A DNA stretch of 64,000 bases from Pseudomonas sp. ACM7 (GTDB lineage: Bacteria > Pseudomonadota > Gammaproteobacteria > Pseudomonadales > Pseudomonadaceae). The DNA is taken from NCBI RefSeq assembly GCF_004136015.1, contig NZ_CP024866.1, positions 971,727 to 1,035,726 on the forward strand, read 5' to 3'. A program made the translations under genes and the position numbers. The notes below the pieces were generated by a model. It was not told where the DNA came from, searched no databases, and worked only from the letters and a program-made list of their open reading frames with translations. Every line of letters starts with the position of its first letter. Positions within the stretch are counted from its first letter, which is position 1. Shown in pieces: positions 7,857-36,553 of this stretch.

Positions 7857-8130
7857 TGCTGTTCACTTAAGGTTGGGGTACATATCCGTTTCTGCGGTAA
7901 CGACGGCTAGCGGTTTCGCTTTTACAGCGAGTCACTTTCGAAAAGCGCGAAAGTAACCAAAGCGCTTTGCCCCGCCATTCGGTGCCTCGCCCAGGCTCGG
8001 CATGCCCTCACTCCGGCATTGCTCCGGGGGCCCGCCGCCATCGGCCATCCATGGCCGGTGGCGGCTACCGCGGCATCCTTGCCGCGGTGCCCCCTGCGCA
8101 ACGCCTGCGTTCGGCCTCTGGGAAAGGGGC
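7857..8130 (+). repeat. Long dispersed repeat, left arm of an inverted pair
   Basis: The arm begins TGCTGTTCACTTA, runs through GCGGTTTCGCTTTTACAGCG, then a GCCTCGCCCAGGCTCGGCAT block and a GCCATCGGCCATCCATGGCC block. The same succession, with substitutions, occurs on the opposite strand at 8321-8644. It is a non-coding repeat, and reading frames through it are not credible genes. It contains nested hairpins (GGCTACCGCGGCATCC region). Confidence 0.8.
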
Positions 8131-8320: not shown

Positions 8321-8644
8321 CCCCCTCGAGAGGCCGAGCGCAGGTTCTGCGCAGTGGGCAACCCGGCATGGATGCCGGGTTAGCCGCCCCCGGCCATGGA
8401 TGGCCGATGGCGGCGGGCCCACGGAGCAGGACCGGAGCGAGGGCATGCCGAGCCTGGGCGAGGCACCGAACGAAAGGGGCAAGAGCCCTTGGTTACTTGG
8501 GGCTTTTCCAAGTGACTCGCTGTAAAAGCGAAACCGCCCTCAGCCATCACCTAAATGACGGATATACACCCAATCAAAGCCCCCGATCAGCACCCACCAC
8601 CAATGTGTAGGTCCGCCTGAAGCCCCAAGACTAAGTGAACAGCA
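8321..8644 (-). repeat. Long dispersed repeat, right arm of the inverted pair
   Basis: This is the reverse-complement counterpart of 7857-8130. Read on the minus strand it starts TGCTGTTCACTTA and passes through GCGGTTTCGCTTTTACAGCG and the same GCCTCGCCCAGGCTCGGCAT and GCCATCGGCCATCCATGGCC blocks. It ends in a GGCCTCTCGAGGGGG palindrome. The arms differ by substitutions and a length difference near the outer end, so the duplication is not recent. No gene is supported in 7814-8669. Confidence 0.8.
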
Positions 8645-31903: not shown

Positions 31904-32902
31904 ATGCGCGAACGCACCATCGCCAGTCATTTCGCCCGTGCCGCCCTCGGTGGCGCACGCCGGCTGGGTTATGACTATTCAAATTTGCTGCAACAACTCG
32001 GCATCAGCCCGGAGTTGCTTGAAGAGCCACGAGCGAGAATCGCGCCTGAACAGTTCACCCGATTGATCCAGGGACTGTGGCTGGCACTGGACGACGAATA
32101 CCTGGGCTTCGGGCCGGTCCCGAGCAAAACCGGCAGCTTCGCGATGATGTGCCATGCGGTGATCCACTGCCGCAATCTGGAGAAAGCACTGCATCGCGGC
32201 TTATTGTTTTATGGCTTGTTCCCCGACGGTCCGCGTCTGACCCTGACCCGCGAAGACGACATGATTCGCCTCAGCCTCGACGATTCGCAGTTCCGCGACC
32301 CGGACCACTTCCTCACCGAGAGCCAGCTGATGGTGTGGCATCGACTCGGCAGCTGGCTGATCGGCCAGCGCATTCGGCTGGAACAGGCGACGTTCAGCTA
32401 CCCAAGGCCCGAGCACGGCGCCGAGTACGATTTGCTATTCCCCTGCCCCATGGCCTTTTCCACGGCTCAGAGCAGCCTGCTGTTTCACAGTCGCTACTTG
32501 AACATGCCACTGCTGCAGGACGAACGGACGCTCAAACATTTCCTCGAACGCTCCCCCGCCGACCTGTTGTCGCGCCCGGATGACGGTGACAGTTTGAGCA
32601 GCCAGTTGCGCCGGTTGCTCAGCCGCGACAGTTCACACTGGCCGGACCTGGAAGCGGTGGCCGCGCACTTGCACATCAGCCCGCAGACCTTGCGTCGGCA
32701 TTTGCGTGAAGAAGGGTCGAGTTTTCAGGAGTTGAAGGACCAGCTGCGCCGGGACATTGCGATTTATCACCTGGGGCGTGCGGACCTGTCGTTGCAGCAG
32801 ATTGCCGAGCAACTGGGGTTTTCAGAGCCTTCGGCGTTTCACCGGGCGTTCAAGAAGTGGACCGGGTTGACGCCTGGGGCCTACCGCGCGCAAGAGAATT
32901 AA
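31904..32902 (+). CDS. AraC-family transcriptional regulator
   Basis: The ATG at 31904 (MRERTIASHFARAALGGARR) gives 332 residues. The N-terminal half matches the arabinose_bd-type ligand domain (GISPELLEEPRARIAPEQFTRL, LGFGPVPSKTGSFAMMCHA) and the C-terminal 100 residues are the two helix-turn-helix units (VAAHLHISPQTLRRHL, IAEQLGFSEPSAFHRAFKKW). A much longer in-frame extension antisense to dctA is rejected. The last 57 residues are encoded a second time at 34880-35055, on the far side of an insert. The regulator is divergent from dctA, but whether it controls it is unknown. Confidence 0.9.
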   Translation: MRERTIASHFARAALGGARRLGYDYSNLLQQLGISPELLEEPRARIAPEQFTRLIQGLWLALDDEYLGFGPVPSKTGSFAMMCHAVIHCRNLEKALHRGLLFYGLFPDGPRLTLTREDDMIRLSLDDSQFRDPDHFLTESQLMVWHRLGSWLIGQRIRLEQATFSYPRPEHGAEYDLLFPCPMAFSTAQSSLLFHSRYLNMPLLQDERTLKHFLERSPADLLSRPDDGDSLSSQLRRLLSRDSSHWPDLEAVAAHLHISPQTLRRHLREEGSSFQELKDQLRRDIAIYHLGRADLSLQQIAEQLGFSEPSAFHRAFKKWTGLTPGAYRAQEN

Positions 32903-33002
32903 GATCAAAAGATCGCAGCCTCGTTTCACTCGACAGCTCCTACGGGGTTTGGCGTACACCTGTAAGAGCTGTCGAGTGAAACGAGGCTGCGATCTTTTGA
33001 TC
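32903..33002. repeat. Palindromic element directly after the araC stop
   Basis: GATCAAAAGATCGCAGCCTC and its complement (with one mismatch, TGTAAGAGC) form a hairpin of about 100 bases starting at the base after the stop codon. It marks the left edge of the accessory insert and could act as a two-way terminator. Confidence 0.88.
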
Positions 33003-33010
33003 TACCGCTA

Positions 33011-33265
33011 CTACTGAAGATCGAGCCTATCCAGCGCCCGATTCACCGCCAGTTCACCCAGCATGATGATTTGCGCAATACCCAACAGCGAATTGCGACT
33101 CGTCCCCTCCATATGATCCGCGAGATCCATGGTCATGACATTGGCCGAGGCCAGCGACTCGCACGCATGGGCCAGCAGGGTTTCGGTATCGAGCTCCGGG
33201 TTGACGATGAACATCGTGCTGGGTGTGCGCGGGGTTTTAGGCGGATTGGGGGTGATCTTGAACAT
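33011..33265 (-). CDS. Small DUF6124-type Pseudomonas protein
   Basis: The 84-residue protein begins MFKITPNPPKTPRTPSTMFI and continues LLAHACESLASANVMTMDLADHMEGTSRNSLLGIAQIIMLGELAVNRALD. The start (MFKxTPNPP) and the helical middle are those of the DUF6124/DUF3077 group found in many copies in Pseudomonas. AGGAG lies seven bases before the ATG but sits inside a hairpin (33270-33288) at the end of a structured leader. No function is known for the family. Confidence 0.8.
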   Translation of the reverse strand: MFKITPNPPKTPRTPSTMFIVNPELDTETLLAHACESLASANVMTMDLADHMEGTSRNSLLGIAQIIMLGELAVNRALDRLDLQ

Positions 33266-33269
33266 TTGA

Positions 33270-33467
33270 GCTCCTAGAGTAATGGAGCCGCTACGCATCG
33301 CTGCTAAACGAAAAAGGGGTGGCGGCTGTACGCGGGTTAGCAGACCAGGACTCTAGAACCCGGCGCACCGAAGTGCCCCACGCAAAGCCGCCATAACATC
33401 TACGGCGGACGCTGTACGTCTAGAGATGACCCGAGCTGCTAAACCCGATCGCTGATGGTCAGCGACA
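33270..33467 (-). ncRNA. Candidate structured cis-regulatory leader RNA of the DUF6124-type gene
   Basis: Hand folding shows nested pairings: 33334-33343 with 33436-33446 (GGGTTAGCAG / CTGCTAAACCC, one bulge), and inside it 33351-33357 with 33419-33425 (CTCTAGA / TCTAGAG). Two hairpins are enclosed, GCAC-CGAA-GTGC at 33365-33376 and CCGCC/GGCGG at 33388-33408. A perfect hairpin TCGCTGA-TGG-TCAGCGA follows at 33449-33465. The segment 33337-33343 can instead pair with CTGCTAA at 33301-33307. A stem GCTCC/GGAGC at 33270-33288 covers the gene's ribosome binding site. The strand is chosen because it leads into the minus-strand gene. This is an untested fold. The rest of the gap to 33678 shows no gene. 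Confidence 0.5.
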
Positions 33468-33678
33468 GGGAAACGATAGAGCCCCAGACCCAAGGCGCAC
33501 AAGCCGGCGGATTCTGGCGTAGTCGTAGGCAGCGGCGCAAGGATGTGTAGCCGGAGTGAGTGTCTGGAGATGTGTTTTAAACAACCGCGTTTATTCGTTA
33601 TTTCGTATTCGTGCAAGAACGCAGGGGTGCACACCAAATATCCCCCTGCTTCCTTGATCCGGGCAATCCCCGGACGAG

Positions 33679-34731
33679 CTAACTCATTAATGAAAGCCGA
33701 AGCAGCGGTGCACCGACGATGTCTCCAGATTGCCGCTCAACGAAACTCATAGCCTTGGCACCCCCACCCAATTGATCGAACCTGATCGGCACGCCGATTA
33801 GCAGGTCATGACCGATTTGGTGAGGTGCCAACGTCTGACGCAAAACATAGGAAGTGCCAGTTTTATTGCCAACAAAGAAAAAGGTCACCACATCGCCAAC
33901 GCTCATTCCATGTGTGCTGAGCTTCATCGGAATCCTCCCGCCCTCGTCTACGAGCTGGAGCTGGCCAGGTTTGTAGTGTCCAGGTTCGTATTCATAGACG
34001 GCTTGCGGAATCAGCAGGTCGCCCTCGACGTCCAGTTCAACCAGGTGAGAGATCCACTTCCGGCCCGCATTTTCCACCGTGTAAACCACCTGAACCGTGC
34101 CGTATTTGTTTGGCCTCAGATAGCGGGGTTCAATGGGAAGCACCACATCTTTGCCTTCGTCGTCGGTCTCGATCCGAAGATGCCTGACAAGGCAGGCCTC
34201 GCAAGCAGTACCGAGCCAATAGACAGAAACCAGAGCCCCGCCTGACAGCGCTTCGGATGCCCTGAGGCGCAGGTTCACGCCGTTGTTGACGGAAGCCAAC
34301 GGGATAACACGACCTTCTGCCTCATCCACGACAGGTCGATAAATGTCGTCCCCCGCAAAATACGTGGCAGATGGAGAAGTCGGGGGATCAGTGTCGAAAT
34401 AAAAATAAAAGAGTTCTAACTGCAGACCTCTGAATGCCAGAGCGCGATCGGCAGGAATGGGTACAAGTGTATCCCCGACAAGTGTTTCGATTATTCCGGG
34501 CTCCCCCCATGAGACATCCGGATCTTCACTTACAACAATAACGTGAAAACGCGCACCGACTTGTTGTCCTTCAAAAGAAGGAATACGCACGGTAAGCCCC
34601 CTGCCCAACTGCTCCAGACTGATAAAACCTTCCCGAGCCTCATCGATGGATGCCGGCGGCAATACGATCTGGGCACCAGTCAATTCTTCAACAATCCGTT
34701 TTCGATTTTGAACCGCCACGAACTCAACCAT
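33679..34731 (-). CDS. Uncharacterised beta-rich repeat protein (350 aa)
   Basis: The ATG at 34731 (MVEFVAVQNRKRIVEEL) follows AAGGAG by seven bases; an ATG at 34752 is possible. I recognise no named family. Three segments of about 105 residues (near 20-125, 135-245 and 245-345) share a pattern: a loop with IP or LP, a strand such as GLTVRIPSFEGQQVGARFHVIV, GVNLRLRASEALSGGALVSVYW or RIPMKLSTHGMSVGDVVTFFFVG, then another strand ending near VDEAEGR or VDEGG. This looks like a string of immunoglobulin-like sandwiches. There is no signal peptide or membrane segment. Parts are visibly richer in A+T than the neighbours (34380-34430), suggesting transfer. Confidence 0.75.
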   Translation of the reverse strand: MVEFVAVQNRKRIVEELTGAQIVLPPASIDEAREGFISLEQLGRGLTVRIPSFEGQQVGARFHVIVVSEDPDVSWGEPGIIETLVGDTLVPIPADRALAFRGLQLELFYFYFDTDPPTSPSATYFAGDDIYRPVVDEAEGRVIPLASVNNGVNLRLRASEALSGGALVSVYWLGTACEACLVRHLRIETDDEGKDVVLPIEPRYLRPNKYGTVQVVYTVENAGRKWISHLVELDVEGDLLIPQAVYEYEPGHYKPGQLQLVDEGGRIPMKLSTHGMSVGDVVTFFFVGNKTGTSYVLRQTLAPHQIGHDLLIGVPIRFDQLGGGAKAMSFVERQSGDIVGAPLLRLSLMS

Positions 34732-34879: not shown

Positions 34880-35055
34880 AGGAATTGAAGGATCAGCTGC
34901 GCCGGGACATCGCGATCTATCACCTGGGGCGGGCGGATTTGTCGTTGCAGCAGATTGCCGAGCAACTGGGGTTTTCAGAGCCTTCGGCGTTTCATCGGGC
35001 GTTCAAGAAGTGGACCGGGTTGACGCCTGGGGCGTATCGGGCTCAAGAAAATTGA
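34880..35055 (+). pseudogene. Second copy of the araC-family gene 3' end
   Basis: The 176 bases align without gaps to 32727-32902. The 57 encoded residues from ELKDQLRRDIAIYHLGRADL to the stop are identical to the intact regulator, but 14 bases differ, all at silent positions or in the stop codon (TAA versus TGA). The fragment carries one complete helix-turn-helix but lacks the rest of the gene. An ATG at 34867 could open a 62-codon frame, but it has no clear ribosome binding site. It looks like the leftover of an insertion at the 3' end of the regulator gene. Confidence 0.9.
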
Positions 35056-35091
35056 GTTCTTGCGCTGGTTTTTTCTGGCGTAGCCACTGAC

Positions 35092-35193
35092 CCCATCGCG
35101 AGCAAGCTCGCTCCCACATTTAACCTTCAGTGAACACAGCATTTGTGTACGACAGAAATCAAATGTGGGAGCGGGCTTGCTCGCGAAGAGGCC
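35092..35193. repeat. REPIN downstream of phoQ
   Basis: CCATCGCGAGCAAGCTCGCTC and TGTGGGAGCGGGCTTGCTCG are inverted about 45 bases apart, between the araC fragment and the convergent phoQ stop. Confidence 0.9.
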
Positions 35194-35206
35194 CGTAAGA
35201 ACACCA

Positions 35207-36553
35207 TCAAACCACCGGAAAATGAATCCGAAACGCCGCCCCACCCATGGGCGAATCCCCCAGCGTCAACTTGGCGCTGTAGCTTTCAATAATGTCCTTG
35301 ACCACCGCCAACCCAATCCCCTGCCCCGGATGCTGCCGATCCAGCCGCTCGCCCCTTTGCAGAATCCGCGCTCGCTGATCCGGTGGCACGCCCGGCCCAT
35401 CATCCTCGACACACAACTCAACCCCGCCAAGGCTTTCACGTACGCTGATGCGCACTTCGCCGAGGCACAGGCGATAGGCGTTTTCCAGCAGGTTGCCCAT
35501 CATTTCCAACAAGGCGCCCTGCTCGATCGGCACGTAACACGGGTCTGGCAGATCGAAGGCGACGCGCACGCGTTTGTCGCGGTAGACCTTGTCCAGCGTG
35601 TCGCACAGGCTTTGCAGCACCGGGCGCAGGCGTACCTGATGGCGTACCAGGCCGCTTTTGCGCAGGCTGGCGCGTTGCAGTTGATAGCTGATCTGCTGAC
35701 TCATGCGTTCGATCTGGGTTTGCAGCACCCAGGCCTGATTACGATCGGCCGGGCGCTGGGCCATGTCTTCGCTGACGCCTTGCAGCACGGTCAGCGGGGT
35801 TTTCAGGCTGTGGGCCAGGTCGTCGAGGGAATCGCGATAACGGCTGCGCTGTTCACGCTCGCTGTGCAGTAAGCGGTTGAGGGAGCCGGTCAGGCGCAGC
35901 AGTTCGCGCGGGTGTTGTTCGCTGAGGCTTTCGCGGGTGCCGCTTTCGATCTCGTCCAGTTCCTGACTGAGCCGGCGCAACGCCTGCAAGCCCCAGGTCA
36001 AACCGATCCACAGCAGCGCGAGCAACACCAGCAAGGCGGCACCGAATCCGAGGTAGAGGTTTTCCCGCAGGCCCTCGAGGGTGGCTTCGTACTCACGTAC
36101 CGGTTGCAGCGCGACGATGCTGAACGCCGCGCTTTTACCGCCGAGCAGTTTGACTTCGACGTCGTAGACGAAGAATTCCTGACCGTCGGCCTCGCGAATT
36201 CGGGCGAACTCGTTGCCGCGTCCGTCGTAACGCGGTTTGTAGTTGATCTTCTCTTCGCGGGTGGCTTTCGAACGCCACACCAAGTGAGCTTCGCGGTCGT
36301 AGATGTAGCCGAGCAAACGGCTGTCGGTCAGGTTGAAGCGCTCGTCGGGCAACTGCGCCGGCATTTGCAGGGTGTTATTTTCCACCCGCGCAGCGGAGAT
36401 CAGCGTGGTGACGTCCGACGCCAGGCGTTGTTCGATCGAGTCCTGCAACGCCAGGCTGAACGCGCCCTGCATCGCCGGCAGCAACGCCAGCATGAACAAC
36501 ACCGCCAGGATCGTGGCGGCGAGCATCAAACGGACACGAAGGGAACGAATCAA
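35207..36553 (-). CDS. phoQ: Sensor histidine kinase PhoQ
   Basis: The 448-residue kinase begins MIRSLRVRLMLAATILAVLF, with a first membrane segment, a periplasmic domain that contains acidic patches (EEKINYKPRYDGRGNEFA), a second membrane segment near residue 170 and HAMP. HisKA carries DLAHSLKTPLTVLQ and the HATPase has NLLENAYRLC and GQGIGLAVVKD. PhoQ senses low divalent cations and cationic peptides and phosphorylates PhoP. It overlaps phoP by four bases and is last in oprH-phoP-phoQ. Confidence 0.95.
   Translation of the reverse strand: MIRSLRVRLMLAATILAVLFMLALLPAMQGAFSLALQDSIEQRLASDVTTLISAARVENNTLQMPAQLPDERFNLTDSRLLGYIYDREAHLVWRSKATREEKINYKPRYDGRGNEFARIREADGQEFFVYDVEVKLLGGKSAAFSIVALQPVREYEATLEGLRENLYLGFGAALLVLLALLWIGLTWGLQALRRLSQELDEIESGTRESLSEQHPRELLRLTGSLNRLLHSEREQRSRYRDSLDDLAHSLKTPLTVLQGVSEDMAQRPADRNQAWVLQTQIERMSQQISYQLQRASLRKSGLVRHQVRLRPVLQSLCDTLDKVYRDKRVRVAFDLPDPCYVPIEQGALLEMMGNLLENAYRLCLGEVRISVRESLGGVELCVEDDGPGVPPDQRARILQRGERLDRQHPGQGIGLAVVKDIIESYSAKLTLGDSPMGGAAFRIHFPVV

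Follow-up and report, generated by a model that had tools for sequence, protein, structure and literature searches.

Besides acting as an antisense RNA, the C4 RNA of phage P1 causes early termination of transcription. It belongs to the immunity region immI that P1 shares with P7, and which is composed of c4, icd, and ant. According to the available text of the sources, C4 of P1 undergoes processing and works in trans (PMC5320573, PMC8546580; see also PMC12197685), and the first gene behind it, icd, inhibits cell division, ant being the gene of an antirepressor (PMC8198154). C4-like RNAs are also found in Acinetobacter baumannii, where the available text describes a Group 1 of 21 such sRNAs in one genome, with a variable a' loop (PMC5320573). 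C4 and its target module c4-a1b1 are listed for Proteobacteria or gamma-Proteobacteria and for phages in the article of Weinberg et al. 2010 (PMC2864571).

In the window (the whole stretch of 64,000 nucleotides of Pseudomonas sp. ACM7 that was analyzed), a structured leader ahead of a small DUF6124 gene had been noticed and taken for an RNA of no described class. That part of the original prediction does not hold, given that a scan of the window with Rfam at gathering cut-offs matched both C4 (RF01695; 33315-33398, minus strand, 70.1 bits versus a cut-off of 45) and c4-a1b1 (RF03163; 33428-33479, minus strand, 49 bits versus 46.7). Judged by its sequence, the folded stretch is a chromosomal relative of the P1 C4 antisense RNA, and the RNA class is therefore already known.

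All parts of the leader are read on the minus strand. Its 5' part holds a 7-bp hairpin (33449-33465), which is the 5' hairpin of the c4-a1b1 module in the sequence, the model alignment, and the leader fold. It is followed by a1 (TTAGCAG, 33436-33442) and b1 (CTCTAGA, 33419-33425), which are the complements of the C4 segments a' and b' as seen in the sequence, the exact runs, and the leader fold. C4 itself contains the b' loop (33350-33357, with TCTAGAG at 33357-33351) and the a' segment (CTGCTAA, 33337-33343), both unpaired in the best fold. Downstream of C4, a2 (TTAGCAG, 33301-33307) falls within the loop of a hairpin that is short and conserved, and b2 (ACTCTAG, 33274-33280) lies mostly in the loop of a hairpin that holds the Shine-Dalgarno sequence AGGAG (33271-33275), 5 nt ahead of the ATG. 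The ribosome binding site is covered by b2, since 33280-33274 overlaps 33275-33271. Read on the plus strand, TTAGCAG at 33337-33343 faces a copy of CTGCTAA both at 33301-33307 and at 33436-33442, and the locus (L034) has 7-nt complementarity at each of a1, b1, a2, and b2. By analogy with the P1 record and with the GG site described in the available text of PMC5320573, mature C4 would extend from approximately 33392 to 33318, about 75 nt; across the 30 C4 copies of this genome the GG is invariant and the CCACC nearly so.

The segments that the original prediction had paired were all found in place, acting on the minus strand. Its outer stem (33334-33343 with 33436-33446) is the pairing of a' with a1 and its inner stem (33351-33357 with 33419-33425) that of b' with b1; from the identity of these segments, both stems are antisense-target pairings inside the precursor. 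The hairpin at 33365-33376 is the first hairpin of C4, and the one at 33449-33465 is that of the module described above. The two mutually exclusive folds that had been proposed do exist, the other CTGCTAA copy being a2, and they are antisense-to-target pairings. The fold proposed originally is nonetheless less stable than the best one (-82.4 kcal/mol with both stems forced versus -87.1 kcal/mol with the same program), in which C4 is closed on itself with a' and b' unpaired, and b1 pairs with a2. The sequence of a further hairpin at 33388-33408 is present, but the hairpin is absent from the best fold, where its half 33393-33388 pairs in the C4 stem. The stem covering the Shine-Dalgarno sequence is formed in the best fold (33274-33271 with 33284-33287), and its hairpin carries b2. 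The model alignment, the covariation, and the folds all give C4 a long closing stem and two inner hairpins. The 216-nt leader folds at -88 kcal/mol, versus a mean of -72.7 kcal/mol for shuffled sequences (z -3.36; none of 200 shuffles as low), and the C4 part alone at -43.1 kcal/mol (z -3.41; 2 of 200 as low). In a local fold, and as a raw count, the Shine-Dalgarno-like word had half or more of its bases paired in 24 of the 28 loci of this genome that have one, out of 30 examined.

The pairings covary, as expected from the original prediction. Among the 30 copies of this genome, 13 of the 22 pairs in the C4 stems are changed on both sides in some copy, and the stems reach a covariation score of 0.468 versus 0.272 for shuffled data, a value attained by none of 500 shuffles. 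The seven pairs between a' and a2 score 0.648 versus 0.211 when shuffled and at most 0.18 when the segments are slid, with 56 cells changed on both sides versus 12.7 in the shuffles. Two of the five measures taken for these pairs fell within the shuffles, namely the number of pairs with both partners changed (6; 72 of 500) and the number of pair types (15; 156 of 500). The shuffles leave the relatedness of the copies in place. In 98.9% of the cells, the stem of three pairs presenting a2 is formed. Given that a' and a2 lie in different parts of the transcript, their covariation is read as selection for pairing.

The a' word, taken at a fixed position, occurs in 21 forms among the 30 copies, and it can be read as an address. 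When the longest exact runs at the target sites are summed, the own target is strictly the best for 25 of the 30 C4s and the own C4 strictly the best for 26 of the 30 targets, with a mean of 14.2 nt for own pairs versus 8.6 nt for cross pairs. Both target sites have an exact run of 7 nt or more in 17 of 30 own pairs versus 0 of 870 cross pairs, and one of 6 nt or more in 24 of 30 versus 5 of 870. The other 13 own pairs fall short of 7 nt at one or both sites, and at L020 the own a2 match is absent. Duplex energies computed over wider windows also favor own pairs on average (-27.6 versus -21.8 kcal/mol; permutation p 0.00005), but the own target ranks first for no more than 8 of the 30 C4s, a poor separation that is in our opinion due to GC-rich flanks that pair with everything. 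Between a2 and b2 there is a weak indication of one more complementary segment, a third, which resembles the 5' strand of C4 (5.46 nt for own versus 4.96 nt for cross pairs, p 0.0002); two control regions showed nothing.

In a set of 107 distinct loci, the complement of the own 7-nt a' word is present in the a2 window of 91 (versus 15% of cross pairs) and upstream of C4 in 98 (versus 17%). The own target is the best or tied in 82 of these loci and strictly the best in 33; the set holds only 25 forms of the a' word, which are shared by orthologues.

The gene behind the window C4 encodes a DUF6124 protein of 84 amino acids (PF19619, 93.6 bits; 33011-33265, minus strand). Its start was set at 33265 because the N terminus MFKxTPNPP is common in relatives; the start given in the list of open reading frames, 33298, would fall between a2 and b2, upstream of the Shine-Dalgarno sequence. 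The protein is predicted to form a hairpin of two helices (residues 27-50 and 54-82; mean pLDDT 83.8), for which no match at E 0.001 or better was found among solved or viral structures. PADLOC returned no match for the three proteins submitted, DUF6124 included, and a profile comparison of DUF6124, DUF3077, and the unnamed families, based on shallow alignments, did not join them (probabilities of at most 2.4%). The openly accessible main texts searched gave no mention of DUF6124 and, among the papers listed, no report of C4 cassettes in Pseudomonas; in one paper, DUF3077 appears as a mutated gene of P. putida.

Upstream of the leader, the sequence and the 30-locus alignment contain a promoter-like site (TTGTGC, 18 nt, TATCGT; 33473-33502, minus strand), although a simple scan for consensus sigma-70 promoters found no site at the leader. 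It is preceded by a CCTAC box (33525-33529, minus strand), which recurs in 21 of the 30 loci of this genome (shuffled mean 4.8) and in 73 of 77 other loci (shuffled mean 11.5). The full pattern of CCTAC followed by TTG and TA is found in 18 of 30 (shuffled 0.6) and 67 of 77 (shuffled 1.5), respectively. This recurrence hints at a shared transcription factor, and it may be the result of common descent alone.

The leader accompanies DUF6124 well beyond the window. The linkage was evaluated with a covariance model built from the 30 C4 copies of this genome in the best 80 of at least 422 DUF6124 loci from named species genomes, all titled Pseudomonas; these are the closest relatives of the window gene, several of them from the same genome. 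In 77 of these best 80 loci, C4 is located on the strand of the gene, no more than about 190 nt from the matched start, and the structured leader is thus present ahead of other family members, as originally expected; with this model no C4 was found upstream of DUF6124 at L073, L076, and L123. The independent Rfam model, applied to 20 of the 80 loci, found C4 in all 20 and a1b1 above cut-off in 8. In this genome (6.6 Mb, one contig), 30 C4 matches (29 above cut-off), 25 a1b1 matches (7 above cut-off), and 20 DUF6124 matches are present. Of the latter, 15 lie directly behind a C4; no C4 was found for the other five, one of which has a weak a1b1 at 24.2 bits.

The cargo of the 30 C4s is not restricted to these 15 DUF6124 genes. 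DUF3077 follows twice (at L019, and at L015 as the second open reading frame) and Bro-N three times (L017, L036, and L042). Nine C4s precede small open reading frames, eight of which were searched, leaving out L040, with no Pfam match, and at L021 only a frame of 34 codons, also with no Pfam match, lies behind C4. The Bro-N protein of L036 starts with MIKVTPNPP, like the N termini of DUF6124 proteins, which suggests domain exchange behind one leader. At L013, which has the best-scoring C4, the DUF6124 frame is broken after 22 codons, indicating that C4 can outlast its cargo.

Across the genus, C4 was matched at E 0.001 in 54 of 59 Pseudomonas genomes (53 above cut-off), with 1007 matches in total, a median of 17 and a maximum of 54, and DUF6124 in 47 of the 59, with 695 matches. 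DUF6124 never occurs without a C4 match in these genomes, the single C4 of G037 being weak (E 1.4e-4), and the two counts are correlated (Spearman rho 0.88), a value that does not come from 59 independent points because the genomes are related. In a sample of the gammaproteobacterial class, C4 was found in 6 of 143 genomes including this one, the other five having 1-3 copies each.

Beside the anatomy, the covariation, and the linkage of the cassette documented above, its operation can be proposed by analogy with P1, from which the cutting, the silencing, and the pulse are taken. With a probability of roughly 85%, the locus is a C4 antisense cassette of the chromosome by which the DUF6124 gene downstream is silenced. 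A single transcript would start upstream of a1b1 and run through C4 into DUF6124. RNase P would probably cut it at the conserved GG that opens C4, and the 3' end would be trimmed near CCACC. In the free C4 so produced, a' would bind a2 and the b' loop would bind b2, both targets being presented in hairpin loops and b2 covering the Shine-Dalgarno sequence, so that ribosomes would be kept off and the gene would be silent for as long as C4 is there. Before the cut, a1 and b1 could compete for a' and b' within the precursor. Given such silence, synthesis of the protein would be confined to a short period, when transcription gets ahead of C4 or when the cassette arrives in a cell that has no copy of this C4. 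The original prediction of cis-acting translational control of a multi-copy DUF6124 gene is thus well supported as regards the structured leader, and the control itself is suggested by the P1 precedent.

The same parts could also work purely in cis, with a1b1, C4, and a2b2 refolding within one transcript as an attenuator that releases no free antisense RNA. The best fold is favored by no more than about 5 kcal/mol over the one with a1 paired to a' and b1 to b', and an identical 7-nt complement of a' flanks C4 on both sides in 89 of the 107 loci, as such a device would have it. The best fold, however, leaves a' and b' free in a closed C4, as an antisense RNA needs; C4 ends in the same GG and CCACC as the P1 RNA, and for the A. 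baumannii C4-like RNAs the available text reports a step in the RNA-seq coverage at a GG-type site that suggests processing (PMC5320573). We therefore regard a purely cis-acting attenuator as improbable.

A second alternative concerns the phages themselves. The C4 cassettes of the Pseudomonas phages PAJU2 and PAShipCat1 lie ahead of genes that match the anti-repressor Ant, and 34 of 52 viral loci with an Ant-type antirepressor have C4 upstream. The chromosomal C4s could be a defence store, acting in trans against incoming phages whose antirepressor genes share their address. When chromosomal C4s were compared with 21 distinct viral targets, one pair in 2268 had at least 7 nt at both sites, which is below the approximately 3.8 expected from independence, and most C4 copies have a matching target next door. 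The sole such pair joins the C4 of L026 in this genome to the target L152 of the element vB_Pae_U10, with runs of 7 and 8 nt at a2 and b2; it is the one case that agrees with a defensive role, which we hold to be slightly less probable still than the attenuator. The ligand-sensing riboswitch, for which the two exclusive folds and the Shine-Dalgarno hairpin could speak, is highly unlikely and was dropped for want of a conserved core, given that the variable parts are copy-specific, covarying antisense and target words, where a shared ligand pocket would be conserved, and that the Rfam scan at gathering cut-offs matched only C4 and c4-a1b1 at the leader and no riboswitch family.

DUF6124 like that of the window is rare in records of mobile elements. 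It was found in 1 of 50,697 phage records, which also has C4, and in 0 of 72,556 plasmids; peptide patterns found DUF6124 in three viral contigs, all three with C4. The exact C4 DNA pattern had no match in viral contigs, but with BLAST and the covariance model C4 was found both in phage records and in viral contigs. The chromosomal family resembles a phage silencer that has exchanged its cargo, or the opposite may hold.

The surroundings of the window cassette bear the marks of an insertion. A 180-nt stretch of the 3' end of an AraC-type gene (32727-32906, plus strand) is repeated with 92% identity at 34880-35059 (plus strand), and these two copies, 2153 nt apart, flank the C4 cassette and a second open reading frame. 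Between the AraC gene and DUF6124 there is a dispersed REP-like inverted repeat with 45-nt arms (32902-33003) that has further copies in the genome. A second REP-like inverted repeat (35071-35211) marks, together with the first, the borders of the inserted stretch, and two other cassettes that were looked at also adjoin repeated DNA. A long open frame beside the cassette (33682-34653, minus strand) has no Pfam or NCBIfam match. Elsewhere in the window, the TwoAYGGAY RNA motif occurs twice on opposite strands (8356-8420, plus; 8028-8092, minus), about 330 nt apart.

The AraC part was matched in 7 of 12 relatives of the same genus. In the four that were inspected, the AraC gene has a single end and is followed by the sensor-kinase region with no C4 cassette, the gap being 3 nt after the shared repeat in L145, 127 nt in L147, and about 570 nt in L146; L148 has other repeats between the two. 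For two further cassettes, evaluated by their left flanks, the flank is kept in 4 of 4 relatives, with no adjoining cassette and with cassette-like DNA matches elsewhere, among the matches listed. The three cassettes tested therefore sit at non-conserved places.

A broader picture, which we put forward tentatively and at somewhat less than even odds, is that of a dispersed Pseudomonas family of C4-silenced cassettes, as many as 54 in one genome, moving between intergenic sites. Their addresses would diversify, which would restrict the silencing by each C4 to its own cargo. On entry into a cell free of that address, the DUF6124, DUF3077, Bro-N, or unnamed small proteins carried would be expressed as a pulse, as in the zygotic induction of phages. 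If this is so, a single cell would naturally hold tens of RNA switches insulated from one another. The cassettes give an uncharacterized multi-copy family of Pseudomonas a probable regulator of known mechanism, and they show a phage immunity RNA distributed across a bacterial genus and joined to different cargo. They also offer a natural system in which to learn what number of antisense pairs is able to coexist with no crosstalk.

In comparison with the described systems, the available article text of Weinberg et al. 2010 lists both RNAs and makes no mention of DUF6124 or of copy numbers (PMC2864571). The authors of the A. baumannii work propose phage or bacterial transcripts as targets and, in the text available, name no targets in cis (PMC5320573), whereas in the genome studied here most C4 copies adjoin a matching target, which suggests a possible cis explanation for those C4-like RNAs, whose targets remained open. 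PAJU2 and PAShipCat1 have the same RNA (76.1 and 75 bits with model R1), but their cargo matches Ant and not DUF6124. The closest likeness is to immI of P1 and P7, with the same order of parts (a1, b1, C4, a2, b2, gene), the same complementarity of a' and b', and b2 at the Shine-Dalgarno sequence; the C4 model scores 68.8 bits in P1 versus 70.1 bits for the window copy, which shares its GG and CCACC ends with the P1 RNA. The P1 stretch examined has one annotated c4, ahead of icd and ant, neither of which lies behind the window C4, where the gene is DUF6124 with no PHROGs match at E 0.01. Unlike in these phages, the cassette is here chromosomal, present in about 30 copies, and placed ahead of DUF6124 and other small genes.
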